Origin: a virus
Direction: 5' to 3' (one strand)
Length of the DNA: 64,000 bases
IMG/VR virus record: IMGVR_UViG_3300013137_000018
Location: 1-64,000 of that record
Shown: piece by piece, positions 2,132-64,000 of the stretch
How the letters are laid out: every line of letters starts with the position of its first letter
Position numbering within the stretch: position 1 is the stretch's first letter
Program-made: the position numbers and the translations under genes
Notes under the pieces: generated by a model
What the model saw: the letters and a program-made list of their open reading frames with translations, nothing else
Told to the model about the DNA's origin: nothing
The model's database searches: none

Positions 2132-3793
2132 ATGATAGTAACAACATCTGTTTGTGTAAAAATTCAGGGACCAAATATAAAATATTATAGACAATTAGGT
2201 TATAATGTAAAAGTTGGTGAAATTTTAACAATTCCTGTAGAACATTTAAGTAAAAAATCACATCATAAAGTTAAAATAAAATGTGATGATTGTGGAATAG
2301 AAAAAGAAACTTTTTATTTCGCATATATCAAATATTTAGAAAAATCACCAGACAATAAATATCGTTGTAATAAATGTAACAATGTATTGAGAGAAAAAAC
2401 CTGTTTAGAAAAATATGGTGTTAAAAATCCAATTCAATCAGAAGAAATAAAAGAAAAAAGAACTCAATTATTTTTAGAAAAATATGGTGTAGAACATTAT
2501 AATAAATTGGACATTTTCAAAGAAAAACGAAAAAACACTAATTTAGAAAAATATGGAACCAAAACACCTATGGAAAACGAAACAATTAAAAATAAACAAT
2601 TAAAAACAACTTTTGATAAATTTGGCGTAAAATGTTCGTTACAAAACGAAAATGTTAAAATCAAAACATTAAAAACAATGAATGATAGATATGGAGTTGA
2701 TTATTCGATGCAAAATACCGAAATTAAAGAAAAAATTTTAACAAAAAGTTTAGAAACAATAAAATACAAAATTCAAGAAAAAAACGAACATATACTAAAA
2801 ATATCAAATAATATATATACTATTAAATGTGATTCATGTAATAAAATATACGAAATCACTCCTCATATGTACTATCAAAGACGAATACAAAACACAGTGC
2901 AATGTACAATATGCAATCCAATAGGTAATAAATTTTCTGGTAAAGAAAATTTATTACTGAATTTTATAAAAGAAAACTATAACGGTGAAATTATTTTAAA
3001 TAGTAGAAATATTATATCTCCATATGAATTGGATATTTATTTACCAGAATTAAAAATAGCTTTTGAATTTAATGGTTTATATTGGCATTCAGAATTATAT
3101 AAAGAAAAAAATTATCACAAAAACAAAACTGAAAAATGCTTTGAAAAAGGAATTCAACTAATTCATGTTTGGGAAGATGATTGGAATTATAAACAAGAAA
3201 TAGTTAAATCAATGATTTTAAATAAATTATATAAAACATCTAATAGAATATTTGCAAGAAAATGTGAAATTAAAGAAATTAATGATAATAGATTAGTTAA
3301 AGATTTTTTAAATGAAAATCATATTCAAGGTTTTGTTGGATCTAGTATAAAATTGGGTTTGTTTTATAATAATGAATTAATTTCTTTAATGACTTTTGGT
3401 AAAAAACGAATTTTTATGAATTCAGTTTCAAAAGAAAATGAATGGGAACTTTTAAGATTTTGTAATAAATTGAATACAAATGTGATAGGTGGTGCTAGTA
3501 AATTATTTAAATATTTTATTAAAAATTTTACATTTAAAGAAATAACTACATATGCAGATAGAAGTTATTCAAATGGTAAATTGTATGAAACAATTGGTTT
3601 AAATTTTATGAGTAAAACGAATCCAAACTATTATTATATAATAGACGGTGTAAGAAAACATAGATTTGGTTTTAGGAAAGATATTCTAATTAATGAAGGC
3701 TATGATAAAAATAAATCTGAACACGAAATTATGTTAGAAAGAAAAATAAATAGAATTTATGATTCAGGTTCGCTTAAATATACATTTGAATAA
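2132..3793 (+). CDS. Vsr-like (EDxHD-type) homing endonuclease with repeat DNA-binding modules
   Basis: A 553-residue free-standing homing endonuclease. Residues about 45-90 hold a zinc-binding module (CDDCG ... CNKC). Residues 90-210 hold five imperfect copies of an EKYGVxNPxQ-type module that recurs in phage homing endonucleases and probably reads DNA. A second CxxC pair (CDSC, CTIC) lies near 235-270. The nuclease core is at about 290-355, with ELDIYLPELKIAFEFNGLYWH then H and VWEDDW; the E/D-EF-G-WH pattern matches the Vsr-fold EDxHD family. The C-terminal 180 residues (FLNENHIQGFVGSS onward, ending in FRKDIL and EHEIMLERK) look like a GNAT-type fold often joined to these enzymes. The ATG lies 52 bases after the preceding gene, behind an A/T-rich leader. 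A close relative faces it from the other strand. Confidence 0.85.
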   Translation: MIVTTSVCVKIQGPNIKYYRQLGYNVKVGEILTIPVEHLSKKSHHKVKIKCDDCGIEKETFYFAYIKYLEKSPDNKYRCNKCNNVLREKTCLEKYGVKNPIQSEEIKEKRTQLFLEKYGVEHYNKLDIFKEKRKNTNLEKYGTKTPMENETIKNKQLKTTFDKFGVKCSLQNENVKIKTLKTMNDRYGVDYSMQNTEIKEKILTKSLETIKYKIQEKNEHILKISNNIYTIKCDSCNKIYEITPHMYYQRRIQNTVQCTICNPIGNKFSGKENLLLNFIKENYNGEIILNSRNIISPYELDIYLPELKIAFEFNGLYWHSELYKEKNYHKNKTEKCFEKGIQLIHVWEDDWNYKQEIVKSMILNKLYKTSNRIFARKCEIKEINDNRLVKDFLNENHIQGFVGSSIKLGLFYNNELISLMTFGKKRIFMNSVSKENEWELLRFCNKLNTNVIGGASKLFKYFIKNFTFKEITTYADRSYSNGKLYETIGLNFMSKTNPNYYYIIDGVRKHRFGFRKDILINEGYDKNKSEHEIMLERKINRIYDSGSLKYTFE

Positions 3794-3860: not shown

Positions 3861-5375
3861 TTAAAAAGTAAATTTTAAATTACCAGCATTATAAATTCTA
3901 TAAAAATTTCTTTCTAACATTATTTCATGTTCTGTTTTATTAGAATTAAATCCTTCTTTAACAAGAACGTCTTTCCTAAAATTAAATCTATAATATCTTT
4001 TTTTATCAATTACATAATAATAATTTGATTTTGTTTTTAAAACGAATTTAAATCCTAATTTTTTATAAAGATTTCCATTCGAATGACTTCTATCTGCATA
4101 AGTTATTATTTCTTTTGATTTATAATTTTTAATAAAATATTTAAATAATTTACTAGCGCCACCTACTACATTAGTATTTAATTTGTTACAAAAACGAATT
4201 AATTCGTATTCGTCATCTTTATTAATAGTATTCATTATTTTTCTTTTTTTACCAAAAGTCATTAAACTAACCAATTCGTTTTTTATAAATAAGCCTATTT
4301 TTATATTTGAACCAACGAATCCTTGAATATGATTTTCATTTAAAAATTCTTTAACTAATTTATTATCATCAATTTCTTTGATTTTACATTTTCTAGCAAA
4401 TATTTTATTAGATGTCTTTCCTAATTTATTTAAAATCATTGACTTAACTATTTCTTGTTTATAATTCCAATCATCTTCCCAAATATGAACTAGTTGAATT
4501 CCTTTTTCTTCGCACAAATCACTTTTCATTGTGTGATAATTTTTATCTTTATACAATTCATTATGCCAATAAAGACCATTAAATTCGAATGCTAAACTTA
4601 AATCTGGTAAATAAATGTCTAATTCATAAGGTTTTATAATTTCTCTTGAATTTTCTATTATTGTTTTGTTATAATTTTTTGTTATAAAATTTAACAATTT
4701 ATTTTCTACATCTGAAAATTGAATTCCTATTGGATTACATATTGTACATATATTTGCATTATATTTATATCTATCATATAATAAAAATCTATTTATTTCA
4801 AATTCATGTCCTTTATCACATTTAAATTTTATTAAATGTTTATCACTATCATAATTTATAAATAAAAAATTTGTATATTTTTTAATAATTCTTTTAATTT
4901 TTGATAAAGTTTGTTTTAGTCTAACTTCCTTATTTTGTGATACTACTTTAGTGCCGTATTTTTTAAAATTAGTTTCATATAATTTGTTTTTTATTATATT
5001 ATTTTGTAATGCCCATTCTGTGCCATATATTTTTTTATTAGTTTCTTTTATTTTTAGTTTTAAATCAATACTCTGCATAGGAAATTCGACACCATATTTT
5101 TTAATCATTGTTTTTTTTCTTCTTTCTAGATTACAAATATTACAATAATATAAATTATTATTATTGTTAATATATTTAATATATGTTTTATATGACATAT
5201 ATTTAATTGTTCCACATTTGTCACAACTTACTTCAACTTTTACATGAGAGCCTAATGTAACATTCTCAATATCAATTTCTATTTCATCATTTAATTTTAA
5301 ATCATTAAATATTTTAGAGTAATGCTTTATGTTTATATTATTTATTCTTATTTTAACCTTTTTTGTTATTAACAT
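3861..5375 (-). CDS. Second Vsr-like homing endonuclease, convergent paralogue
   Basis: A 504-residue paralogue of the gene at 2132-3793, on the opposite strand, 3' end to 3' end with a 67-base gap. The order is the same: zinc module (CDKCG ... CNIC) at about 50-85, three rather than five KYGVEFPMQ-like modules, a second CxxC region near 185-215, the EDxHD-type nuclease core at about 240-310 (ELDIYLPDLSLAFEFNGLYWH, HIWEDDW), and the GNAT-like C-terminal part. Similarity is highest over the nuclease core and C-terminal part and falls off in the N-terminal modules, which suggests target specificity changed while the catalytic part was kept. It separates the gene at 5476 from the baseplate genes. 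An intact frame suggests recent activity. Confidence 0.85.
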   Translation of the reverse strand: MLITKKVKIRINNINIKHYSKIFNDLKLNDEIEIDIENVTLGSHVKVEVSCDKCGTIKYMSYKTYIKYINNNNNLYYCNICNLERRKKTMIKKYGVEFPMQSIDLKLKIKETNKKIYGTEWALQNNIIKNKLYETNFKKYGTKVVSQNKEVRLKQTLSKIKRIIKKYTNFLFINYDSDKHLIKFKCDKGHEFEINRFLLYDRYKYNANICTICNPIGIQFSDVENKLLNFITKNYNKTIIENSREIIKPYELDIYLPDLSLAFEFNGLYWHNELYKDKNYHTMKSDLCEEKGIQLVHIWEDDWNYKQEIVKSMILNKLGKTSNKIFARKCKIKEIDDNKLVKEFLNENHIQGFVGSNIKIGLFIKNELVSLMTFGKKRKIMNTINKDDEYELIRFCNKLNTNVVGGASKLFKYFIKNYKSKEIITYADRSHSNGNLYKKLGFKFVLKTKSNYYYVIDKKRYYRFNFRKDVLVKEGFNSNKTEHEIMLERNFYRIYNAGNLKFTF

Positions 5376-33041: not shown

Positions 33042-33269
33042 TTCATCAAATGGATATTCTTGTTTCTTGACATAAAAATATATAAGAATAAATATTAATA
33101 GTTTAAAATGAAATATAAAAAACTACAGAAGAATTTATAAGAGAAGATAATCCAAAACAAAAAGAAAAAGATCGTATTAGACAACAAGATATTATAGATT
33201 TTCTTAAATGTAAATTTATTAGAATAAGTATTAAATAATTACTTTAATTTCATCAAATGGATATTCTTG
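33042..33269. repeat. 21-bp direct repeat flanking an insertion at the uvsW 3' end
   Basis: The 21 bases at 33042-33062 are identical to 33249-33269. The second copy codes for QEYPFDE near the end of UvsW; the first sits just upstream of the zinc-ribbon gene in the same orientation, and the matching protein text extends a few residues further. The roughly 190 bases between the copies contain the endonuclease relic. Confidence 0.85.
33108..33238 (+). pseudogene. Remnant of homing-endonuclease C-terminus
   Basis: From 33119 a 39-residue open stretch reads TTEEFIREDNPKQKEK, DRIRQQDIIDFLKCKFIRIS, ending at 33238. A terminal DFLKCKFIRI motif of this type is common at the end of phage and nucleocytoplasmic-virus homing-endonuclease or antirepressor-like proteins. 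An ATG at 33108 (MKYKK) lies in a different frame, so the 5' part is lost or frameshifted. It is antisense to uvsW and overlaps its stop codon. It is too short to be functional. Confidence 0.5.
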
Positions 33270-34169
33270 AGGTATATATAAATCTTTTTTTCTTGAGATA
33301 TAATGATTATATAAAATGGTTTTATAAGAACTGTGAAACTGGTCAACTATATCAAATATAACAGCTTTATCACCTTCTTTATCTTTGTGCAATCTTAAAG
33401 CACGACCAATAGATTGTAATACAATACGAGCAGACTTAAACGAATCTGCAAATATTATATTTTTCAAAGCTTTTATACTAACACCAGTAGAAAGAGTACC
33501 AAAAGATGCGACTAATATTTTAGGTCTGCCATCAGTTATTTCCATTTGTTTTTTGATATATTCTCTTTTTTCAGATGTTGTTTGACCATCGATATAATAG
33601 AAGTCTTTATCAAGAACATTTGACCTAAAATAATTATATAACGTTGTGCCATAATCTATGTTATGAAAAAGTACAAGTGAATTGTTTTTGAATTTACCAA
33701 CTAATTTACTTAAAAATATTTTTCTTTTGTCTGAATTTTGAGCATATTCTTTTTCTAATTCATAGGCTCTTTTACCATTACCATATTTCTTAATTGTATA
33801 AACACTTTCAGCAAAAGACGAATCATCATATTGTAATATTAAACATTTAACTTTTACATTTGAAATTAGACCTTTTGACATAAGTTCTTTTGCTTTAACT
33901 GCGATTAATTTAGGTCCAGTAACAGATTCAATAGCCATCCATTCAGATGTTCCTTCTAATGGATATGTACCTGACATACCAAGTCTATAATGTGCGAAAC
34001 CAAAAGTTTTCTTCATTATAGATTGTAGAGTTTGCGCTTTCGCAGTATGACAATTACTTACACATATATCATTTGCAAAATAGTTGTTTTTAATATTACG
34101 TCCATTCTTAACTCTTAAATTATAAACTTCACCATTATAATTTATTTTTTTTATTGTTTTTATTTTCAT
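33231..34169 (-). CDS. uvsW: UvsW helicase C-terminal half with C-intein
   Basis: A 312-residue protein from the ATG at 34169 (a TTG one codon upstream is less likely). Residues 1-39 are a C-intein: GEVYNLRVKNG is block F and ICVSN the splice end, with Ser instead of the usual penultimate His. Residue 40 is the +1 Cys of CHTAKAQT, which joins VDE of the other half to rebuild the DECH box. After it come HYRLGMSGTYP (motif III region), SLVLFHNIDYG, LVASFGTLSTGVSIKAL (motif V) and SIGRALRLHKD (motif VI). T4 UvsW is a superfamily 2 helicase that remodels D-loops and stalled forks and helps switch from origin- to recombination-dependent replication. Trans-splicing would give 251 + 273 = 524 residues, close to T4 UvsW. 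Its start overlaps the endonuclease gene by 35 bases. Confidence 0.85.
   Translation of the reverse strand: MKIKTIKKINYNGEVYNLRVKNGRNIKNNYFANDICVSNCHTAKAQTLQSIMKKTFGFAHYRLGMSGTYPLEGTSEWMAIESVTGPKLIAVKAKELMSKGLISNVKVKCLILQYDDSSFAESVYTIKKYGNGKRAYELEKEYAQNSDKRKIFLSKLVGKFKNNSLVLFHNIDYGTTLYNYFRSNVLDKDFYYIDGQTTSEKREYIKKQMEITDGRPKILVASFGTLSTGVSIKALKNIIFADSFKSARIVLQSIGRALRLHKDKEGDKAVIFDIVDQFHSSYKTILYNHYISRKKDLYIPQEYPFDEIKVII
34053..34169 (-). other. C-intein of the split uvsW intein
   Basis: A 39-residue C-terminal intein half, a normal length for natural split inteins (about 35-50). Block F GEVYNLRVKNG and block G ICVSN, then +1 Cys. The final Asn needed for cyclisation is present; the penultimate His is replaced by Ser, a variation known in some inteins. 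Confidence 0.85.
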
Positions 34170-35145
34170 CAAATTGTCTTAAATTTTTAATTAATTTTTC
34201 TTTATTTATTTGATTATTTAATAATTCTTTGTTATAATTTTTCTTAAACCACTCATCTTCAATTATTACATATTTATAATCATTTTCAACAGACCATTTA
34301 ATAGCATATTCTCTTTTAATTTTGTTTTTTAATTTTGTTTTTTCGCTTCTAGGTTTTATTTCATATAAAATTTTATTAACAACATCTAAAAAATCTATAA
34401 TATAAATATGTTTTTTATTTTCATAAAAATATGGTATTCTGATTTTTTCATATAACAATTCAGGATTTACAATATGAAAAAAAGATTCCCAAGAACTTCT
34501 ATGTTTTATTATCTTATCGTTGATCAATGTTTCTATTCTCGAATGACACCAACTATTAGTTACACAAGGTGTAAAAGTTCCATTAATTATGCGTTCTTTT
34601 ATAGATATCGAAATTTTTTCTTTCCATTTTTTTTTATTTTTTATTTTATAAACACTATTATTATCAATTTGTTTTTTTGATCTATATTCAAATAAACATT
34701 TATCAGAACAAAAATGATTATATACATTTCTACTCCTTATACCTATAAATTTTGTTGTTTTTCCACATATTTTACATTTTCTATCTTTCTCACTAATATT
34801 CGATAATAGAAAATATATTTCTTCTACTGTTTGTTCTACACCTTCAATTTTAATATAATTTATATCTAACCATTTTTTTAAACTTTCATCTATATTTTTT
34901 CTATTTAAAAATTTATTTTTTGATTTTAAGTCACAAAAAAGAAAATTAAATATTTTTTCTTTTACATCTTTATCACTATTCTTATCCACTATTAAATAGT
35001 CACTTTCTATTAATATTCTTTCTTTTTTTGTATTAATATTAAACATTTTATTACAAGATAAACATTTATATCTTAAATTATTTTTTTCATACCAACTTGT
35101 TACTATCTTTGATTCACATTTTGGACAAATTGTTATTTTAGTCAT
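34135..35145 (-). CDS. Free-standing PD-(D/E)XK-like homing endonuclease inside split uvsW
   Basis: A 336-residue protein lying exactly between the two intein halves. Two zinc modules are seen: CPKCES ... CLSCNK (residues 8-37) and CKICGK ... CSDKC (about 125-152). A basic linker follows, then HRSSWESFFHIVNPELLYEKI, IYIIDFLDVVNK and YEIKPRSEKTK at about 215-270. The spaced E, ID and EIK residues fit a PD-(D/E)XK nuclease core. It does not show the WH signature of the Vsr-like enzymes at 2.1-5.4 kb. The gene starts 18 bases after the first half of uvsW and overlaps the second half, and a promoter-like motif precedes it. This is the fractured-gene layout in which a nuclease gene travels between the halves of a split intein. 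A role in homing into uvsW is inferred. Confidence 0.8.
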   Translation of the reverse strand: MTKITICPKCESKIVTSWYEKNNLRYKCLSCNKMFNINTKKERILIESDYLIVDKNSDKDVKEKIFNFLFCDLKSKNKFLNRKNIDESLKKWLDINYIKIEGVEQTVEEIYFLLSNISEKDRKCKICGKTTKFIGIRSRNVYNHFCSDKCLFEYRSKKQIDNNSVYKIKNKKKWKEKISISIKERIINGTFTPCVTNSWCHSRIETLINDKIIKHRSSWESFFHIVNPELLYEKIRIPYFYENKKHIYIIDFLDVVNKILYEIKPRSEKTKLKNKIKREYAIKWSVENDYKYVIIEDEWFKKNYNKELLNNQINKEKLIKNLRQFDENKNNKKNKL

Positions 35146-35155
35146 AGCCTTTGTT

Positions 35156-35177
35156 TTTTATATCTATATATTAAAAT
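35156..35177 (-). promoter_or_regulatory. Promoter-like motif before the uvsW-embedded nuclease
   Basis: Minus strand TTTTAATATATAGATATAAA, about 10-30 bases ahead of the ATG at 35145 and overlapping the stop region of the first uvsW half. It would allow the nuclease and the second uvsW half to be transcribed separately. Confidence 0.45.
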
Positions 35178-36213
35178 CTAAAATATCATCTTTTTCTAAA
35201 AGTTCATCAACTCTTTTCCATAAATAATTTTTTAATAGTACTTCGTGATTTCCTGTGATTTTAATAATATCACCATTTTCCATTTCTAATTCATACATCT
35301 GTTGTCCTTGTGATAAATTTTTATACACATATTCAACTTCTGTAATTTCTTTGTTTTTGGTTTCTTCATTAAAAGATATTATTTTATCACCAATAATTAA
35401 TTCTTTTATCATTTTTTTACTACCATCAAACATCGTTATTTTTGTTTCTGGATGTAAACACTCATCAACCATAACAACATTAAATTGTTTAAAGAAATTA
35501 GGTTCTAACTCAGCTGTACCATAATTTATCAACGATTGATATGTACCTATATAAATATTTGGTTCTTTGCCATCACGAACCTTTCTTGGTTTGTCTGACA
35601 TAATCTCTTGTATGTTTATTTCTAAAGGATTTTTATTTTCTTTACCAAATCCTAAATTATAATCTATCATATCATCATAGAATTGTGTTACAAGTGATAT
35701 TGAAGGAACTATAAGTAAAATTTTTGTATCTGGTCTTCTTTTTAAAATATAGAAAACCATAATAGAAAATATTAACGATTTACCACCAGATGTTGCGACC
35801 TCTACTGTTCCGTATCTGTGCTTTAACATTCTATATGCCGCATTAATTTGATGCGAATATGGTTTAAAATCTTCGCCTTTTAATTTATGGTCTTTAAAGA
35901 AATCATCACAAAAATTAGATACATCTTCTAATGTTATTTTATTGTCTCTTGGGAATTGTTCTTTATTAAGAACAACAAATGGATAACCATATTCTTTACA
36001 GCAATTATAACATTCTTGCCATAAACCAAAATCAATTATACCCGTATCAGTCATATATTCAAATTTTCCATTCCATTTTGTTAATTTAAATCTTGGCATG
36101 AAACGATATCCTTTTACATAAGGTGACAACCAATTTTTCAAATTATTGAACTCCTCTCTTGTAGATTCTTTTAATATGAATTTACTACGATCTTTGCTAA
36201 TTTCAAATTTCAA
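35164..36213 (-). CDS. uvsW: UvsW helicase N-terminal half with N-intein
   Basis: A 349-residue protein. Residues 1-100 match the UvsW N-terminal domain (KDRSKFILKESTREEF ... GYRFMPRFKLTKWNGKF). Walker A is VEVATSGGKS at about 137-146, motif Ia LLIVPSISL, and Walker B begins MVDE at 248-251. There it is cut: Cys252 starts an N-intein to residue 349, followed by TAA. The visible start is TTG at 36213; the frame extends 16 codons further up (ATLVRYGNSKCYFKAL) to a TAG, with no ATG, and this extension looks protein-like, so the true start is uncertain. The gene lies 72 bases after the uvsY-like gene, an adjacency also seen in T4. Confidence 0.85.
   Translation of the reverse strand: MKFEISKDRSKFILKESTREEFNNLKNWLSPYVKGYRFMPRFKLTKWNGKFEYMTDTGIIDFGLWQECYNCCKEYGYPFVVLNKEQFPRDNKITLEDVSNFCDDFFKDHKLKGEDFKPYSHQINAAYRMLKHRYGTVEVATSGGKSLIFSIMVFYILKRRPDTKILLIVPSISLVTQFYDDMIDYNLGFGKENKNPLEINIQEIMSDKPRKVRDGKEPNIYIGTYQSLINYGTAELEPNFFKQFNVVMVDECLHPETKITMFDGSKKMIKELIIGDKIISFNEETKNKEITEVEYVYKNLSQGQQMYELEMENGDIIKITGNHEVLLKNYLWKRVDELLEKDDILDFNI
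35167..35460 (-). other. N-intein of the split uvsW intein
   Basis: Residues 252-349 of the first uvsW half (98 residues). Block A: Cys1 with CLHPETKITMFDG; block B: GDIIKITGNHEVLL with the T-x-x-H motif at 320-323. It ends DDILDFNI then stop. Insertion is after VDE of the DECH box, a classic hotspot in a catalytic motif. Confidence 0.88.
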
Positions 36214-50268: not shown

Positions 50269-51047
50269 ACTAAAGTAAAAATAATTTGTAAAAAACACGG
50301 AGTTTTTGAACAAAAACCAAATTCACACTTAAATATCATTCATAATAATAAATATGATTATTCAATGGTAGAATATAAAAATTATAAGGAAAATGTAAAA
50401 ATAATATGTCCAGAACATGGCGAATTTTATCAAAGAGTTAGTAATCATTTAAATGGTAATGGTTGCACAGAATGTGATAATAAAAATAGAAGAAATAAAG
50501 ATTATATCGAAAAGTGTAGACTAAAATTTAAAAATAAGTATGATTATTCATTGGTTGATTATAAAAATAATAAAACTAAAGTAAAAATAATTTGTAAAAT
50601 ACACGGAATTTTTGAACAATAAAAGACCATTTAAATGGAAATGATTGTTCCAATAAAAAAATGAATACAAATCTATTTATTGAAAAATCAAAAATAATAC
50701 ATGGGAATTTATACGATTATTCATTAGTAGAATATAAAAACGCTTTTGAGAAAATAAAATAATAATATACAATATGAATATCAAAAAAGTTTTGACGATT
50801 GTAAACATATTTTAAAACTACCATTCGATTTTTATATTCCAAACAAAAATTTATGTATAGAATATAATGGTATGCAGCATTACAAACCAGTAGACTATTT
50901 CGGTGGGGAAGATGAGTTTAAACTAAGAAAAAAAGAGATAAAATAAAAAAAGATTTTTGTAAGGAATATGGATTAAAATTAAAAATAATTTCATATAAAG
51001 ATAATATTATTAAAAAAATAACTAAGATTTTAAATGCAGAAATATGA
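50269..51047 (+). pseudogene. Decayed Vsr-like homing endonuclease upstream of topoisomerase
   Basis: Broken by several frameshifts and stops, but recognisable throughout. Three copies of a zinc-binding module (KVKIICKKHGVFEQ; KYDYSMVEYKN; HLNGNGCTEC) run from 50269 to about 50760, with a stop at 50620-50622 and a frame change after it. From about 50785 comes the nuclease core DDCKHILKLPFDFYIPNKN, LCIEYNGMQHYKPVDYF, and from about 50940 in another frame KKDFCKEYGLKLKIISYKDN. The D-FYIP-IEYNGxQHY pattern is that of Vsr-fold homing endonucleases. Its last codons overlap the ATG of the topoisomerase gene. It accounts for the 880 bases between 50154 and 51034. Confidence 0.8.
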
Positions 51048-52821
51048 AAAATTAACTCCAATAGAACATGTCTTGAAAAGACCTGGTATGTACATTGGTG
51101 ATAATCAAAATAATTTGAGAAATATATTTGTTGTTACAGATTCCGAATTAGATGAAATAAAATTAACGCAAAAAATAGTAAAATATAATCCTGGATTTTG
51201 TAAATTATTCGATGAAATTATTACTAATGCGGCAGATCATTGTATAAGAACACAAAAAGTAAAATATATTAAAGTTTATGTTTATCAAGATCACATAGAA
51301 GTAGAAAATGATGGACCAGGTATACCAATTGAAATGCACAAAGAACATAAATTGTATATACCCGAAATGATATTCGGTCATTTACATAGCGGTTCTAATT
51401 TTGATGATTCTGAAGAAAGAACTTGGGGCGGAATGAATGGTTTAGGCGCTAAATTAACAAACATCTTTTCCAAAAAATTTATTATAGAGACTGGTGATGG
51501 CAAAAAGAATTATTATCAAGAATTTACAAACAATCTTGATAAAATAGAAAAACCATCTATTACAAAATCAAGCAAAAATTATACGAGAATATCTTATTAT
51601 CCAGACTTTGAAAGATTTGGATTAGAATCTATAACACCCGAAATAGAACAAATTCTTATGAAAAGAGTTATAGATATTTCTGTTTATTGTCCTAAGGTTA
51701 AAGTTTATTATAATGATAAACAAATACCAATCAAGACTTTCAAAGATTACATGAAAATGTATCTTACACCAGAATCAGAAACATTCTATGAAAAATTAAA
51801 TGAAGATTGGGAAATAGGTATATCATCTTCTTCCGATGATACATTTCAACAAGTTTCCATGGTTAATGGTATAGCAACTATTAACGGTGGTTCTCATGTT
51901 AATCATGTTACTAATCAAATAGTTACACAAGTAATAGACACACTTCAAAAGAAACATAAAAAGATTAAGATAAAACCAGCTGATGTAAAAAATAAATTGT
52001 TTATATTTTTGAATAGTAAAGTTGTAAATCCTATTTTTGATGCACAGACAAAAGAAACATTGACAAGTAAATTAACACAAAAAGACATTGGTGGTGTAAA
52101 TGTTTCTGATAAATTAATAAAGCAATTATTACAATCTAATATAGTTGAAGATATTTTAAATTATATTCAATTAAAAGAAAACGCAGAATTAAAAAAATTA
52201 AATAAAGGTAAAGTATCAAAAGTTAAAGTAAAGAAACTTGATGATGCAAATTTTGCAGGAACATCACAATCTGAAAAGACTTATTTAGCATTAACTGAAG
52301 GTGATAGTGCAAAATCTTTTTGCATTAGTGGCTTTGAAAGTACAGGAAGGGATTATTGGGGGGTTTTTCCATTAAAAGGAAAACCGTTGAATGTGCGTGA
52401 TTCATCAATGGCTAAAATAAAAGAAAATGAAGAAATACAAAATATAGTTTCAGCATTAGGATTAGAATTTGGCAAAAAATATACTTCAACAAAGGAATTG
52501 AGATATGGTAATTTGGTATTAATAACAGATGCGGATTGTATAGAAGAAAATACTTTGATAAGAACTAAAAGAGGTGATATAAAAATAAAAGATTTGACAT
52601 ATGATGATTTAGTTTTAACTCATTCAGGAAAATATAGACGTATTAAAAAAATTATAAAAACAAATAAAAAAAAATACGTGGAGATTGAAATTAATGGAAA
52701 AATATTAAAAGTTAGTGAATATCATAAAATGATAGTTATTAGAGACGGTGAGCAGTTAGAATTGTTTGCAAAAGACATATTAAAAACAGATTTGTTATTA
52801 TTTAGAAAAAATTCATCATAA
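51034..52821 (+). CDS. Type IIA topoisomerase, N-terminal half with N-intein
   Basis: A 595-residue protein. Residues 10-25 (HVLKRPGMYIGD) and the GHKL ATPase motifs follow: FDEIITNAADH at about 59-69, VENDGPGIPIE near 90-100, and TWGGMNGLGAKLTNIF near 130-145. The transducer domain follows, then the TOPRIM domain opens with YLALTEGDSAKSF at about 417-429 and continues PLKGKPLNVRD to LVLITDAD at 494-501. There, exactly in the metal-binding DxDxD motif, Cys502 begins a 94-residue N-intein and the frame ends with TAA. The rest of the enzyme lies in the next gene. Together they form a fused B+A enzyme like eukaryotic and large-virus topoisomerase II, unlike the T4 gp39/60/52 arrangement. Start ATG 51034 overlaps the decayed endonuclease. 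Confidence 0.88.
   Translation: MQKYEKLTPIEHVLKRPGMYIGDNQNNLRNIFVVTDSELDEIKLTQKIVKYNPGFCKLFDEIITNAADHCIRTQKVKYIKVYVYQDHIEVENDGPGIPIEMHKEHKLYIPEMIFGHLHSGSNFDDSEERTWGGMNGLGAKLTNIFSKKFIIETGDGKKNYYQEFTNNLDKIEKPSITKSSKNYTRISYYPDFERFGLESITPEIEQILMKRVIDISVYCPKVKVYYNDKQIPIKTFKDYMKMYLTPESETFYEKLNEDWEIGISSSSDDTFQQVSMVNGIATINGGSHVNHVTNQIVTQVIDTLQKKHKKIKIKPADVKNKLFIFLNSKVVNPIFDAQTKETLTSKLTQKDIGGVNVSDKLIKQLLQSNIVEDILNYIQLKENAELKKLNKGKVSKVKVKKLDDANFAGTSQSEKTYLALTEGDSAKSFCISGFESTGRDYWGVFPLKGKPLNVRDSSMAKIKENEEIQNIVSALGLEFGKKYTSTKELRYGNLVLITDADCIEENTLIRTKRGDIKIKDLTYDDLVLTHSGKYRRIKKIIKTNKKKYVEIEINGKILKVSEYHKMIVIRDGEQLELFAKDILKTDLLLFRKNSS
52537..52818 (+). other. N-intein in topoisomerase TOPRIM motif
   Basis: Residues 502-595 of the first half. 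Block A starts at Cys502 (CIEENTLIRTKRGDIKIKD); block B is KILKVSEYHKMIVI with S-x-x-H at 561-564 (Ser for Thr). It ends TDLLLFRKNSS then TAA. Extein junction DAD|C. Confidence 0.85.
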
Positions 52822-52887
52822 TCTATTGGCATTGTAATCCGAAAATATAACAGATTTTAAAAATAAAAATAAAAATATAATATATTT

Positions 52888-53037
52888 ATGATAAATTTAA
52901 ATGAATATGATTTTTATAAAATAGATAATGTTAGTATAAAAATTAATGATATAAAAGAAAAATATTACGATATAGAAATAGAAGATGATAATACTTTTCA
53001 TATTGTGTCAGATAATGATTTAATATTAACACACAAT
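52888..53037 (+). other. C-intein in topoisomerase TOPRIM motif
   Basis: Residues 1-50 of the second half. Block F is KYYDIEIEDDNTFHI at about 25-39; block G ILTHN at 46-50 with penultimate His and final Asn both present; +1 residue Cys51 starts CDGSHIKGLL. Confidence 0.85.
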
Positions 53038-54786
53038 TGTGACGGAAGTCATATAAAGGGACTACTTATAAATTTTTTCGAAAATTTTTTCCCAGAATTA
53101 TTAACTTTAGATTTTATATATGAATTTGTAACCCCGATTATAAAGGCGGAATATAAAAATGATATAAAATATTTTTACAAATTAAATGATTATACTAAAT
53201 GGAAAAATACAAAAACATCAAATAATTATACAATCAAGTATTTTAAAGGGTTAGGTACATTAGAACCTTATGAGGCAAAAATGTTTTTTAAGGATATTAA
53301 AAAACATCTTATAAAATTTAATTATGATAAACCAATAGAAACAAAAGATATTATAGACCTAGTTTTCAATAAGAAGCGTTCAGATGATAGAAAAGAATGG
53401 TTGTTAAATTATAAACCAGGTATATTAATTGACAAATTTGGTGAAAAAACGACATATAATGATTTTTTTAATAAAGAATTTATTGAATTTTCAATGTATG
53501 ATAACATACGTTCTATACCTTCTGTTATTGACGGATTAAAACCTTCACAAAGGAAAATATTATATGCAACATTAAAGAAAAAATTATTCAGTGATACCAA
53601 AGTCAGTCAATTTAGTGGATATGTTATAGAGCAGACATCGTATCACCATGGAAATGTGTCACTTGAAGATGCAATCGTGTCAATGGCTCAGGATTTTGTG
53701 GGGTCTAATAATTTAAATTTACTATTACCGAAAGGACAATTTGGTACTAGAATAAATGGTGGTAAAGACGCAGCATCCAGTAGATATATTTTTACAAAAT
53801 TGAACCCCCTTACAAGATACATTTTCAAAGAAGAAGATGATGACATTTTAAATTATTTAGATGATGATGGTTTTTCTATTGAACCAGAATGGTACACACC
53901 AGTAATTCCTATGATTCTTATTAATGGTGCAGAAGGTATTGGAACAGGTTGGTCAACAAAACTACCAAACTATGATCCTGCAGATATTATTAAATATTTA
54001 GTATTGAAAATAAAAGATAAAGATGTTGAACCATTACATCCTAAATATAAAGGATTTAAAGGAAAAATAGTATTCGATTCTGAAAATAATAGATACATCA
54101 CCAGAGGTATAATTAAAAAGGTTAATATGAGTACATTAAATATTAGCGAATTACCTATTGGTATGTGGAATGATAAATATTATGAGATATTGGATGAACT
54201 TGTAAATGATAAAATTATTAAGGATTACTCTAAAAACGATACAGACACAAAGGTTGATATTACAATAAATATATCAAGAGAGAGTTTAAAAGATATTGAA
54301 AATAGATTGATTGAAACTTTCAAATTAGAAACATATTTAAGTATATCAAATATGCATCTTTTTAATAAAGATGGTCAGATTCACAGATATGAAAGTATAG
54401 ATGAAATTATAAATGAGTTTGTGGAAGTAAGACTCGAATTCTATGAAAAAAGAAAAGAGTATATTTTATCACAATTAGAAAGAGATAGAAAGATTTTATT
54501 TAACAAGATGAAATTCATTAATGAAATTTTAAAAGGTTCATTAGAATTGAAAAATAAGAAACGAGATGAAATTGAATCAAAGATGGAAGAATTAGAAATA
54601 TCTAAACTCGATGATTCATATTCATATTTATTAAATATGTCTTTAGTGTCTTTGACTACTGAAAAATTGGCTGAATTAAAAAAGTTATATTCTGATAAAA
54701 AAGAAGAAATAGAAGCCTTGAGTAAGACTTCTATTAAACAACTTTGGTTAAAGGATCTTAATGACCTTTATAAGAAATTAGGTTAA
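52888..54786 (+). CDS. Type IIA topoisomerase, C-terminal half with C-intein
   Basis: A 632-residue protein. Residues 1-50 are the C-intein. From Cys51, CDGSHIKGLLINFFENFFPELL completes the TOPRIM domain, with KYFKGLGTLEPYEA at 118-130. The breakage-reunion part begins near 185, with SIPSVIDGLKPSQRKILY (209-226), the EQTSYHHGNVSLEDAI region and the active-site tyrosine Tyr300 in AASSRY. A coiled coil at about 500-550 (EVRLEFYEKRKEYILSQLER) forms the C-gate arm. Splicing would give 501 + 582 = 1083 residues, like chlorella-virus-sized topoisomerase II. The frame is the same as the first half, with four in-frame TAA codons in the 66-base gap. Without splicing neither half has a complete TOPRIM motif. 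Confidence 0.88.
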   Translation: MINLNEYDFYKIDNVSIKINDIKEKYYDIEIEDDNTFHIVSDNDLILTHNCDGSHIKGLLINFFENFFPELLTLDFIYEFVTPIIKAEYKNDIKYFYKLNDYTKWKNTKTSNNYTIKYFKGLGTLEPYEAKMFFKDIKKHLIKFNYDKPIETKDIIDLVFNKKRSDDRKEWLLNYKPGILIDKFGEKTTYNDFFNKEFIEFSMYDNIRSIPSVIDGLKPSQRKILYATLKKKLFSDTKVSQFSGYVIEQTSYHHGNVSLEDAIVSMAQDFVGSNNLNLLLPKGQFGTRINGGKDAASSRYIFTKLNPLTRYIFKEEDDDILNYLDDDGFSIEPEWYTPVIPMILINGAEGIGTGWSTKLPNYDPADIIKYLVLKIKDKDVEPLHPKYKGFKGKIVFDSENNRYITRGIIKKVNMSTLNISELPIGMWNDKYYEILDELVNDKIIKDYSKNDTDTKVDITINISRESLKDIENRLIETFKLETYLSISNMHLFNKDGQIHRYESIDEIINEFVEVRLEFYEKRKEYILSQLERDRKILFNKMKFINEILKGSLELKNKKRDEIESKMEELEISKLDDSYSYLLNMSLVSLTTEKLAELKKLYSDKKEEIEALSKTSIKQLWLKDLNDLYKKLG

Positions 54787-59846: not shown

Positions 59847-61145
59847 TTATGATACTATTATTGAAATTGGTCCACCCAATTGATATTTTGTTCTATACAT
59901 TCTATATGTAGTCGAAATTCCAAATTCATTTATTATTGTCACATTCTTATAATAATAACCACCACTACTACCATCAGTAAAACCATCACTATAACCAGCC
60001 ATAGCCACTCCTAATTTTGTTAAATTATCTGCGAATGAACTTGGCGTTTTTACAACTAAAACACCATTTCTTGTATTATAATAGCCAGATGTAGTTGGTA
60101 TAAAGAAATATTTATAACCATTTCCATCAAAATTATATGTCGTTCCACCGCCTGCTATCAAATCTGTTAAATATGAATCAAAAGATGATAATTCTGTATA
60201 ATTTGTAACACTTGTTATTACACTTGTATTGCTACCATACCAAGTTCTCCAATACCAATTTATTCTTTTTATTGTACCAATATAAGTAGGGGTATTTATT
60301 TTTTTAGCCTTTACTATCCAATAATAATAAGTTTTTGTAGTTCTTGTAACACCTGATAAATAATGAGTTTGTGGTGATACAATACTTTGATTATTTGCAA
60401 TATATGAACCATTCATGTATTGTAGTTTTAAACTATTTGCTTCTAATAGTGTTGGAAATTGATAAGTCCAAGAAAATGTTCTATCACCAGAGTCTACACT
60501 ATCACCAACTTCTAAGTTACTTACATCAGATATGTTAAAACTAAGGAATCTTGATACTAAATCTGGATATAATAAACTATCCCACATGTCTTGCATACTT
60601 TCATTCTCAAAAATAGAACCAGACTCAATTCCACCAAAAGTGACAAGAGTTGATGAACTATTAGTATATGTTAATACATAATCATTATTAACAAATTCTA
60701 ATCCTGTTTCTCCACTATTTACTATAATACTATAACCACTATAACCAGAATATGAACTTGGTGTGTCTGCTAAATCTATAAAAGTGGAACCTGTTATTCT
60801 TTCTATTGTTGATGTTATTCCTGAAATAATTATATCAATTTCAGTTGATGTATAATATTCGCTAAACGTTAAAATAAGATTTTTGGCATCATTCGCTTTT
60901 GTTTCTGCCATTTGAGCAATAGTCATTGAATCAAAATCTAATATTGCATAAGTGTGGTCTCTACATGGTTGTCTTTCGATGTTGGTTCTTAATTGGTGAA
61001 TAACAACATTATTATTCTTATAATAGAAATTAACATCTATTGGTTCTAACAAATACATTAGATTACCACTAGCATCATAAATTTCAAGTTTTTTGTCGCC
61101 AGGTACAGGAACTTTTATAAAATTGTCATATGAATAAGTTGCCAA
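59847..61145 (-). CDS. Fibre attachment / baseplate-linked protein
   Basis: A 432-residue protein. Only TTG at 61145 is available as a start, because a TAA is directly upstream. Residues 15-95 hold the attachment module (KKLEIYDASGNLMYLLEP ... ILDFDSMTIAQMAETKAND). The middle includes a connector like those in the fibres (FIDLADTPSSYSGYSGYSII), and the last 230 residues form a beta-rich globular domain (WTYQFPTLLEANSLKLQY; YWIVKAKKINTPTYIGTIKR; YKYFFIPTTSGYYN). It is one base from the repeat fibre at 55952 and probably connects that fibre to the virion. No enzyme motif. Confidence 0.65.
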   Translation of the reverse strand: MATYSYDNFIKVPVPGDKKLEIYDASGNLMYLLEPIDVNFYYKNNNVVIHQLRTNIERQPCRDHTYAILDFDSMTIAQMAETKANDAKNLILTFSEYYTSTEIDIIISGITSTIERITGSTFIDLADTPSSYSGYSGYSIIVNSGETGLEFVNNDYVLTYTNSSSTLVTFGGIESGSIFENESMQDMWDSLLYPDLVSRFLSFNISDVSNLEVGDSVDSGDRTFSWTYQFPTLLEANSLKLQYMNGSYIANNQSIVSPQTHYLSGVTRTTKTYYYWIVKAKKINTPTYIGTIKRINWYWRTWYGSNTSVITSVTNYTELSSFDSYLTDLIAGGGTTYNFDGNGYKYFFIPTTSGYYNTRNGVLVVKTPSSFADNLTKLGVAMAGYSDGFTDGSSGGYYYKNVTIINEFGISTTYRMYRTKYQLGGPISIIVS

Positions 61146-61173
61146 TTACTTAATATTTATTTTTAAGTATATA

Positions 61174-61563
61174 TTAATTTTTCTTCCAGACTTTACTCCA
61201 AAATAATTCAAAAGTTACAGTCATAAGTGATTTTAAACCAAAAAATATTAGAATATACCAATACCAATTTAAACACAAACAGATACTCAAACACAATACC
61301 ATAGAAATGAATAATGATGATAACATAATCATTTGAAATAAATGCCAAGCGTCTGTTAGCCAAACAAAAATTGTTGTTGAGCCAGGAAATGCAGGTCCTT
61401 TAGAAGGATCTCTGTCTTTGTATTTGTTTTTCCAACTTTCTTTTGGATTAAACCATTCTTTTCCTTTGAATATGGATTGTTCATATTTAAAATTTATAGT
61501 ATCCATTATAGATTTGCTTATACCAGCAATTATAATGAATAAAACAATAAAAAATATAATCAT
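61174..61563 (-). CDS. Small membrane protein
   Basis: A 129-residue protein with a hydrophobic N-terminal helix (IIFFIVLFIIIAGI), a soluble loop (FNPKESWKNKYKDRDPSKGP, TTIFVWLTDAWHLFQ) and two or three further hydrophobic helices (MIMLSSLFISMVLCLSICLC; YWYILIFFGLKSLM). No signal-peptidase site. Family not recognised; an inner-membrane protein that could act in superinfection or lysis control is possible, without direct evidence. It has its own promoter-like motif at 61571-61590. Confidence 0.6.
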   Translation of the reverse strand: MIIFFIVLFIIIAGISKSIMDTINFKYEQSIFKGKEWFNPKESWKNKYKDRDPSKGPAFPGSTTIFVWLTDAWHLFQMIMLSSLFISMVLCLSICLCLNWYWYILIFFGLKSLMTVTFELFWSKVWKKN

Positions 61564-61570
61564 GTGATTT

Positions 61571-61590
61571 TTATTTTTATATATTAATAA
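61571..61590 (-). promoter_or_regulatory. Promoter-like motif
   Basis: Minus strand TTATTAATATATAAAAATAA, 8-27 bases before the ATG at 61563. Confidence 0.5.
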
Positions 61591-61642
61591 ACTTATTATA
61601 CTTATTTGTTATATAAATATAAATATAAATTTTTAATTTACT

Positions 61643-61927
61643 ATGAAACTATTAAAAAAGTATTTTAAAGTAGTTCACGAAATATACGATTACTTTGATT
61701 ATTCAGGTGGTAAAAAAATATTTCCATTTGAAGATTATACAGATTTTGAATGGTATAAAAAAGATAATAGAATATATTATTCCATAGAAGATTCTGATTA
61801 CTTTAACGATGAATATTTAGAAGAATACACAGGTGAAGAATATACAATGTTTCTCATAAAAGATTCATTAAATGTAGATGAATGCCTTGTTATATTTGAC
61901 AATCAAAAATTAAAAAATGTAGAATGA
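61643..61927 (+). CDS. Hypothetical acidic, Tyr-rich protein
   Basis: A 94-residue protein: MKLLKKYFKVVHEIYDYFDY then a very acidic, Tyr-rich middle (DSDYFNDEYLEEYTGEEYT) and a hydrophobic end (CLVIFDNQKLKNVE). No motif recognised. It is a lone rightward gene between leftward genes, with A/T-rich TATAAATA-type sequences upstream (around 61610-61630). The stop is TGA, one of several clear TGA stops in the window. Confidence 0.55.
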   Translation: MKLLKKYFKVVHEIYDYFDYSGGKKIFPFEDYTDFEWYKKDNRIYYSIEDSDYFNDEYLEEYTGEEYTMFLIKDSLNVDECLVIFDNQKLKNVE

Positions 61928-61941
61928 TGTTCTGATAAAAA

Positions 61942-63456
61942 TTAATTTTTTAAATATATATTTCTAACTGAAGTAGGATGCAAATTATATATTTTAGAAA
62001 TTTCAACATAAGTTTTTCCTTCGTTTCTTAATTTAATCATATTTTTAATTTCTTTTTTTGTTGATTTTGTTTTATGATATTGCCATGTTTTATTTTTAAA
62101 ATCATCAAACTTAGACCATTTTCTATTCAGACCAATACCTTTATAAATTTCTTTATACAATTTAACAGCATTTGTACCACTCCAATTAACACGATACAAA
62201 CCTTTTACTTTTTTGATATTTTTTTTAATATTACAGGATATTTCAGGAAACATATTTTTAATATATTCAGATATTTCATATGAGCATAAAACATCAATAA
62301 ATATATTAGATTTATTTTTATTTGTGTATATACAACCATCACCATCGATTAATCCAACCAACCAATATTTTATCAATTCCTTATCTTGTTGTATTATTTC
62401 AGGTATTTCATTTTTTAAACTTTTTCGTGGTCTCAAATTCCATTTTTTAATATTTTCAATTATATATGGATCTTCTACAACTAAAGAATATGCTTGTTTA
62501 TTTTTAATCAATGGTTTAATATAAATTGGTCTATCGGTATTAATATATTTTTTATATGAATCTATTAATTCATAATCTGTGCTGGTAAGTTCAATAATAT
62601 ATCTAAATTTACCATTTTTCTTAATACAACCATCTGCTGAAATCAATCCTGCAAAATATGATGTTAATTCATCTGCGTCATAAAAACAATCTCTATTATA
62701 ATAATAATTTGTTCGAAATAATTTTATATTATATCTTTTAGACCACCAAACAATTTTATCATTAGAACAACTGCAAATTTCAGCAACTTTTGCTGTATTA
62801 AAATCATTATTTTTTAATAATTTTAAAAGATCTAATTTTTTAAATATTTCATTATTTTCTTTATCAATATAATCAAACATTAAATTAAAATCTTTTAATA
62901 GTCTTTTATAACTTATATCATTTATTATAACATTATTTCCAAAATCTTTCCATGATAATTGCGTCTCACTTATATGATTAGAATAATCCCAAACATTTGG
63001 TCTTATTATAAAAAAACAAATAGCACCAATATTCTCCAAATTATTTTTTTCATTAAAAAATCTGGTATCATCAATACAATAATTTTTATTTGGTTTTATT
63101 AATGACATTAATTTATTAACATGAAAATCTGGATCTGCTTTCCGTATTACCTCTGTTGCCAAATATTGAAGCGCAACTCTTACTGATTTAAACATTATAT
63201 TAGTTTTATCGATTTTATCCAAATCTATATTAGTTAATTCTGAAAGTTTGATTCTTTTTTCATCATTCCAAGGTAATGGATGTTCTAATTCTTTTTCTTT
63301 ATTTTTAATTAAATAATCTCTATCAAAACCATATAGTTCACATACCACATTTTTAACTATATTACCAAAACTTAGTATCGTATATCCTCTTTTTCCTAAT
63401 TCTTGTGCTAGAAGTGTTTTTCCACTTTTTTTTCTACCAGACAATGACACTATCAT
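61942..63456 (-). CDS. dNMP kinase fused to a LAGLIDADG homing endonuclease
   Basis: A 504-residue fusion. Residues 1-195 form a T4 gp1-like deoxynucleoside monophosphate kinase: Walker A GRKKSGKT at 7-14, FKSVRVALQYLATEVIRKAD at about 89-108, IDDTRFFNE near 128-136 and SETQLSW near 163-169. The family phosphorylates dNMPs for phage DNA synthesis. Residues 200-250 look like a helix-turn-helix linker (NTAKVAEICSCSNDKIVWWS). Two LAGLIDADG motifs follow, FAGLISADG (268-276) and LVGLIDGDG (366-374), each followed by a basic beta-rich region, so the nuclease part looks complete. Residues 465-504 form a second HTH (YVEISKIYNLHPTSVRNI). There are no intein splicing blocks, so this is a real end-to-end fusion. 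Promoter-like motif at 63471-63490. Confidence 0.82.
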   Translation of the reverse strand: MIVSLSGRKKSGKTLLAQELGKRGYTILSFGNIVKNVVCELYGFDRDYLIKNKEKELEHPLPWNDEKRIKLSELTNIDLDKIDKTNIMFKSVRVALQYLATEVIRKADPDFHVNKLMSLIKPNKNYCIDDTRFFNEKNNLENIGAICFFIIRPNVWDYSNHISETQLSWKDFGNNVIINDISYKRLLKDFNLMFDYIDKENNEIFKKLDLLKLLKNNDFNTAKVAEICSCSNDKIVWWSKRYNIKLFRTNYYYNRDCFYDADELTSYFAGLISADGCIKKNGKFRYIIELTSTDYELIDSYKKYINTDRPIYIKPLIKNKQAYSLVVEDPYIIENIKKWNLRPRKSLKNEIPEIIQQDKELIKYWLVGLIDGDGCIYTNKNKSNIFIDVLCSYEISEYIKNMFPEISCNIKKNIKKVKGLYRVNWSGTNAVKLYKEIYKGIGLNRKWSKFDDFKNKTWQYHKTKSTKKEIKNMIKLRNEGKTYVEISKIYNLHPTSVRNIYLKN

Positions 63457-63470
63457 ATTATTATAATTTC

Positions 63471-63490
63471 TTTTATATTATATATTAAAT
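63471..63490 (-). promoter_or_regulatory. Promoter-like motif before kinase fusion gene
   Basis: Minus strand ATTTAATATATAATATAAAA, 15-34 bases before ATG 63456. Confidence 0.5.
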
Positions 63491-63581
63491 TATGAAAGCC
63501 AAATAGTATAATTACCCATTTTTTTAAAATAAAACTATACTAAAGATTTTATTAAGATGTATAGATGTATAGATAATTTGA

Positions 63582-64000
63582 TTAGTAAATTGCATACTTG
63601 TCATTTAACCAATCATTTATTTGATTGATTTCTGTTAATGACAAACATCTATTAAATACCAGAAATTCAGGTATATATGCGTTAGTTCCATTAGAACTAT
63701 CATATCTTGCACCTAAGTGTAGATTATCTGTTACACCAAGTGCACCAGGATTGTTTGATATTAATGGATTTAATAAAGCATTACTTTTATTTATGTATAA
63801 TTTATGACCTTTGTTTGTACCATCATATTGATGTGATAATATTTTCCAACTACCTGATAACCAATTATCGTTATAATCTTTTGCTGTTGCACTATATGAA
63901 ACACTTAATTTTGCAGTTCTAACAGCACTAACATCACCTGTTAAATAAAATCCAGTTCCTGTATTACAATTATTACCAAACTCATATATATATTTATTAT
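63582..64000 (-). CDS. LamG/concanavalin-like structural protein, 3' end only
   Basis: A leftward frame open from the right edge to a TAA at 63582; the gene starts beyond the window. The visible 139 residues read NKYIYEFGNNCNTGTGFYL, SYSATAKDYNDNWLSGSWKI, LSHQYDGTNKGHKLYINKSN, and end EFLVFNRCLSLTEINQINDW. The HQYDGT...KLYIN and EFLVFNRCLS...INDWLNDKY pattern is that of laminin-G-like/concanavalin sandwiches found in phage tail and fibre proteins. Likely a virion surface protein. It belongs to another leftward transcription unit. Confidence 0.75.
   Translation of the reverse strand, partial: NKYIYEFGNNCNTGTGFYLTGDVSAVRTAKLSVSYSATAKDYNDNWLSGSWKILSHQYDGTNKGHKLYINKSNALLNPLISNNPGALGVTDNLHLGARYDSSNGTNAYIPEFLVFNRCLSLTEINQINDWLNDKYAIY

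Follow-up and report, generated by a model that had tools for sequence, protein, structure and literature searches.

A phage dNMP kinase joined in one frame to a two-motif LAGLIDADG nuclease without an intein or intron

Homing endonucleases usually persist inside self-splicing introns or inteins. A different arrangement is summarized in PMC12308204 (citing Sethuraman et al. 2009) for the mitochondrial rps3 gene of ophiostomatoid fungi, where a double-motif LAGLIDADG nuclease is joined in frame to the C-terminal coding segment of the host gene and the join is not spliced out. The host there is a ribosomal protein encoded by an organelle gene within an rRNA-gene intron, and the fusion is scattered among strains. 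The WHO elements of yeast also home without splicing, into the 3′ end of FBA1, though as separate genes (Coughlan et al. 2020, PMC7282813). They have their own expression, derive from inteins and possess zinc fingers; duplicated 3′ fragments of FBA1 are left behind, and decayed copies occur (PMC7282813). In phages, free-standing homing endonuclease genes are commonly found beside essential genes (PMC10448857).

The DNA analysed here, called the window, is the stretch of 64,000 nucleotides at positions 1 to 64,000 of the viral record IMGVR_UViG_3300013137_000018. A first-pass annotation made from the letters alone had proposed that a dNMP kinase and a two-motif LAGLIDADG nuclease are fused in one frame near the end of the window. 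The proposal is confirmed by an ORF of 504 codons that starts with ATG and runs without interruption in the ORF list and its translation, and by Pfam, PHROGs and a structure model. The features are as follows.

61942-63456, minus strand: whole fused gene, dNMP kinase, helix-turn-helix (HTH), LAGLIDADG nuclease and HTH, 504 amino acids (ORF call, Pfam, PHROGs)
62866-63456, minus strand: complete dNMP kinase domain, residues 1-197 (Pfam DNMK; model against the T4 kinase 1dek)
62839-62865, minus strand: flexible linker, residues 198-206 (pLDDT under 50 at 197-202)
62734-62838, minus strand: first HTH, residues 207-241 (secondary structure of the model, alignments, pattern)
62077-62676, minus strand: LAGLIDADG nuclease domain, residues 261-460 (Pfam; PI-PfuI and I-Tsp061I structures)
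62629-62658, minus strand: LAGLIDADG motif 1, YFAGLISADG, with the predicted catalytic Asp275 (translation, alignment)
62335-62364, minus strand: LAGLIDADG motif 2, WLVGLIDGDG, with the predicted catalytic Asp373 (translation, alignment)
61948-62058, minus strand: C-terminal HTH, residues 467-503 (HTH_23, model)
61643-61927, plus strand: convergent ORF of 94 amino acids, ending 14 bases from the stop codon of the fusion (ORF list)

Host protein and nuclease thus share one continuous frame, as an unspliced C-terminal fusion of the rps3 type, which together with the WHO elements is the nearest precedent. The window fusion differs from that type in that the host is a phage metabolic enzyme, HTH domains are present, the carriers are deeply diverged lineages, and decayed derivatives occur. 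Like a WHO element, the LAGLIDADG nuclease occupies the 3′ end of a metabolic gene that is essential, and decayed copies occur in both. The two parts form a single polypeptide, however, and lie in one frame in six contigs, with only one further relative split; a second kinase fragment was not found in the 66.8-kb record, which holds one kinase match and may be an incomplete genome. The free-standing phage genes likewise adjoin an important gene but are unfused. The closest relatives in named phages are the recA nucleases of Staphylococcus phages (Stau2, I-MsaII type), with approximately 30% identity over 200 residues. These are annotated as intron ORFs splitting recA, whereas the window nuclease has no intron and leaves its host gene uninterrupted.

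PHROGs assigns residues 1-203 to dNMP kinase (1.7e-23) and residues 174-451 to an endonuclease (1.8e-31). The structure model of the fused protein has a mean pLDDT of 78.9, and values below 50 are confined to residues 157-162, the linker (197-202) and residues 457-464. The fused protein matches the phage dNMP kinase family in Pfam (DNMK, PF21448; E=1.3e-7; 31.9 bits, above the cut-off of 27.1), and the T4 gene 1 dNMP kinase (1dek, 241 residues) aligns over its chain residues 2-241 with residues 1-197 of the model at a Z score of 15.6. Since the alignment spans the whole T4 enzyme, no part of the kinase is missing, in agreement with the earlier estimate of a complete domain of about 195 residues. 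The T4 enzyme has the same whole fold and stops where the linker of the fusion starts. The P-loop (GRKKSGKT) and a DDxR motif are present, and the kinase domain is presumably active in the fusion. The kinases of two relatives, L098 and L301, lack an arginine that most members of the family keep (RP to SP).

LAGLIDADG_3 (PF14528) matches the fused protein in two stretches with an E value of 6.2e-11. In the model, PI-PfuI is matched by residues 261-459 (184 aligned residues, Z 18.4) and I-Tsp061I by residues 261-460 (Z 16.6), giving the alpha-beta saddle typical of LAGLIDADG folds. The two LAGLIDADG helices both carry their acids, Asp275 and Asp373, so that the two motifs reported earlier are intact, and judging from its sequence the nuclease is still competent. 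Three helices at residues 207-241 and three more at 467-503 are both HTH-like in the model. The first segment contains the pattern S-[RN]-D-x-[IV]-[VI]-[WY]-[WY], which alignments and a pattern search find in common among the fused nucleases. The second is matched by HTH_23 at residues 472-500 with an E value of 0.0013, a match that falls short of the Pfam cut-off. Both of the HTH segments in the annotation are therefore found in the window copy, but the second is confined to it and is absent from the aligned relatives.

No intein model in Pfam or further profile libraries matches the fused protein, and no host-protein sequence (C-extein) follows the nuclease. The same libraries do detect halves of split inteins at other places in the window. 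In Rfam, the window has no hit at the gathering threshold, and positions 61000-64000 show no intron even when E values up to 5 are allowed. The absence of intein blocks stated in the annotation thus holds, and since no splicing apparatus was found, the nuclease gene is neither an intein nor an intron-borne ORF. The many named-phage relatives of the nuclease that are annotated as intron-borne, or that lie between fragments of recA, gyrase, helicase or polymerase genes, might nevertheless suggest that the nuclease sits in a group I intron or intein and that its ORF is fused to the upstream exon, with the genuine 3′ portion of the kinase found downstream. This is very improbable, because the kinase is already complete against T4 1dek, no intron core or intein model was matched, and the downstream gene is close. 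The next gene on the same strand starts within 40 bases after the fusion stop in four relatives (L097, L098, L301 and L303), leaving no room for an intron and 3′ exon, and the convergent ORF leaves little room for a 3′ exon in the window.

A split intein and what seems to be a second one were noticed elsewhere in the window. At 33231-36213 (minus strand), a UvsW-like helicase is encoded in two parts. The N-part (35164-36213) has the N-terminal splicing region of an intein at its end (TIGR01445, 7.6e-10), and the C-part (33231-34172) begins with the C-terminal piece of one. Between the two parts lies an endonuclease ORF of its own (34135-35145, phrog_15427). At 51034-54786 (plus strand), the large subunit of topoisomerase II is likewise in two. 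The first ORF has a Hint_2 match (2.8e-5) at 502-545, and the second has an IntC-like start followed by the C-terminus of the large subunit (TOPRIM_C), which continues into the A-type subunit in one frame.

The same continuous fusion is present in five further divergent viral contigs (L096, L097, L098, L301 and L303). These relatives were found by searching with alignments of the kinase, the nuclease and the HTH region; when the window protein or either of its halves served as a single query, scans of viral contigs found nothing. A sequencing error that hides a stop codon, which the annotation had named as a refutation, is excluded as the cause, because five independent, divergent contigs carry the same one-frame fusion. 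The comparison of kinase genes that the annotation had suggested further indicates an old, maintained arrangement and not an accident, since at least five more viral contigs, all of them distantly related, share the join. What stands of the proposed event is accordingly the unspliced join; a recent, one-off event does not, given an old fusion in at least six divergent lineages. The genomes range in G+C content from 27% (the window) up to the GC-rich L098. No fusion was found in named phages, where no record covers 80% of the query, and genome contigs gave only unfused kinases, one of which (L252) is tailed. A near-identical pair of phages with and without the fusion was not found.

A seventh contig, L300, has the kinase and the nuclease consecutively in one frame, split by two in-frame stops (TAA-TCA-TAG). 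The stops precede the last helix of the kinase, and the codons for this helix seem to resume after them. L300 thus looks like a fusion that was split again; alternatively, it was never fused. The position of these stops shows that separate expression can work, and in the window Met193 lies just ahead of the linker. The nuclease might therefore also, or mainly, be made separately from an internal start, with the long frame being only read-through. We regard such an incidental join as improbable, since stops would be expected if the join were unimportant, but the frame stays open through the linker and HTH in six contigs from 27% G+C to GC-rich.

Among the seven proteins (six fused and L300), pairwise identities are 27-41% for the kinase and 33-50% for the nuclease. 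The nuclease is at least as conserved as the kinase in all but one of the 21 pairs, which are not independent of one another, and both of the catalytic aspartates are kept in 7/7. This conservation indicates that the nuclease is not decaying cargo; it is either under selection or spread more recently than the kinases diverged.

When 46 further LAGLIDADG nucleases, taken from phages and viral contigs, are included in a tree, the seven nucleases including that of L300 form one clade (100/100). In the kinase tree, fused, decayed and C-terminally tailed kinases form one clade (98/97), with tail-less outgroup kinases outside. Two kinases with decayed nucleases, L178 and L193, cluster with the fused kinases other than L303 at 86/65 and are nested among fused kinases in a six-row clade at 99/97. 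A clade of fused kinases that excludes the decayed ones is rejected (p=0.012), whereas one clade of fused and decayed kinases including L303 is not (p=0.17). These topology tests show that one old fusion followed by decay suffices, and the best reading is that the fusion arose in one or very few events that predate the divergence of these kinases. The positions of L300 and L303 differ between the kinase and nuclease trees. The kinase data marginally reject a grouping of L097 and L303 (p=0.047), so that exchange of nucleases between kinases, as expected from homing, is possible; the conflict for L300 is not significant (p=0.18 and 0.21). The conflicts could reflect exchange at the junction or weak resolution.

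The L178 and L193 kinases are 47% and 41% identical to the window kinase and carry a tail of approximately 125 residues. In this tail, the first half of the LAGLIDADG domain can be traced along with the helix of its second half, though the acids of the ADG and DGDG motifs are lost, and with them both aspartates. The best non-self matches of a profile of the tail are LAGLIDADG ORFs (E=2.7e-4 and 4.9e-4), and a profile of the fused nucleases matches L193 (E=3.3e-4). The best reading of these sequences is that the nuclease has decayed to a non-catalytic tail in the two lineages.

Further related kinases have C-terminal tails of 80-110 residues (types C and D) ending in NPxIxENLK or close variants. 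Many of the contigs in a large clade of phage dNMP kinases (L305-L353) are 200-400 kb long, and the extension in this clade is variable except for the terminal NPxIxENLK-like motif. In an hhalign comparison of 17 columns only, the terminal motif of the D tails resembles PYIIENIKKW, the helix ending the first half of the nuclease, and a D-tail profile matches the fused nuclease weakly (E=0.0065). The D tail folded alone (pLDDT 85.6) has few and weak structural matches, and the absence of LAGLIDADG proteins among these is uninformative. That these tails (~80-110 residues, NPxIxENLK) are remnants of the same fused endonuclease across the kinase clade is a tentative idea that we hold to be rather doubtful. 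No decayed or tailed kinase was found in named phages at good coverage. The sole long match, in Arthrobacter phage Pixelle, was rejected as a tailed kinase, being 24% identical and spanning two genes.

LAGLIDADG nucleases recur on the 3′ side of this kinase gene. In L336, L321, L182, L331, L181, L337 and L184, the tailed kinase is followed on the same strand, after 66-378 bases, by another LAGLIDADG gene; those compared (L181, L184 and L182) are 25-29% identical to the window nuclease. Within the stretches examined, no LAGLIDADG gene was found directly upstream of a kinase of this type. Since free-standing LAGLIDADG genes occur just 3′ of related kinases, fusion by loss of a stop and a start, as the annotation had proposed, is a plausible route, by which the nuclease may have come under the expression of the kinase.

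Other homing-endonuclease relatives were also noticed. Two adjoining genes on opposite strands of the window, 2132-3793 (plus) and 3861-5375 (minus), match phrog_3339 at 5e-128 and 1.5e-119. In Prevotella phage Lak-B6 (L011, approximately 2300-3500), a LAGLIDADG relative follows a gene whose final ITNIEDEQS recurs beyond the nuclease, suggesting a duplication of the 3′ end or an interrupted gene.

Taken together, we consider it likely that the fusion is an unspliced LAGLIDADG homing element that sits on the 3′ end of a kinase gene of importance to the phage, was fused once or very few times and is decaying in some lineages. The kinase domain would provide dNTP synthesis, so that loss of the gene would be costly to the phage. 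The nuclease would cut kinase alleles without the insert, probably in the 3′ region of the kinase gene, and repair of the break would copy the nuclease along with the 3′ end of the kinase. Later, the nuclease may decay to a non-catalytic tail, as in L178 and L193, or stops may separate the parts, as in L300.

The main rival is a domesticated nuclease, kept because it is useful to the phage in cutting co-infecting competitors or in binding its own DNA, with homing lost. Conservation of the nuclease at least as good as that of the kinase over deep divergence fits such a role, and PMC11620839 reports a phage intron endonuclease that attacks a co-infecting phage. LAGLIDADG folds have also turned into regulators, and WhiA is among the structural matches. 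A pure regulator would not need the catalytic aspartates that all seven proteins retain, however, and decayed and split relatives are what the ordinary life cycle of selfish DNA would produce, although a weapon that the phage can do without might decay as well. Domestication with loss of homing is therefore unlikely in our judgment; use of the nuclease against competitors is nevertheless compatible with the homing account and not exclusive of it.

A search covering part of the literature found no work that combines LAGLIDADG nucleases with dNMP kinase. The window fusion is the first phage case found; the partner is a metabolic enzyme, the arrangement has long been maintained, and it has decayed derivatives. 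A nuclease joined to a working enzyme across phage divergence would be another lasting way of occupying an important gene, and the fusion family allows the idea that fusion protects a selfish gene from loss to be tested. The L178 and L193 copies show a possible next stage, in which only a tail is left of the selfish domain, either inert or put to a new use. If the tails of the wider kinase clade were indeed remnants of the same endonuclease, a selfish nuclease that has lost its active site would, in many lineages, have been kept for good as part of a metabolic enzyme.
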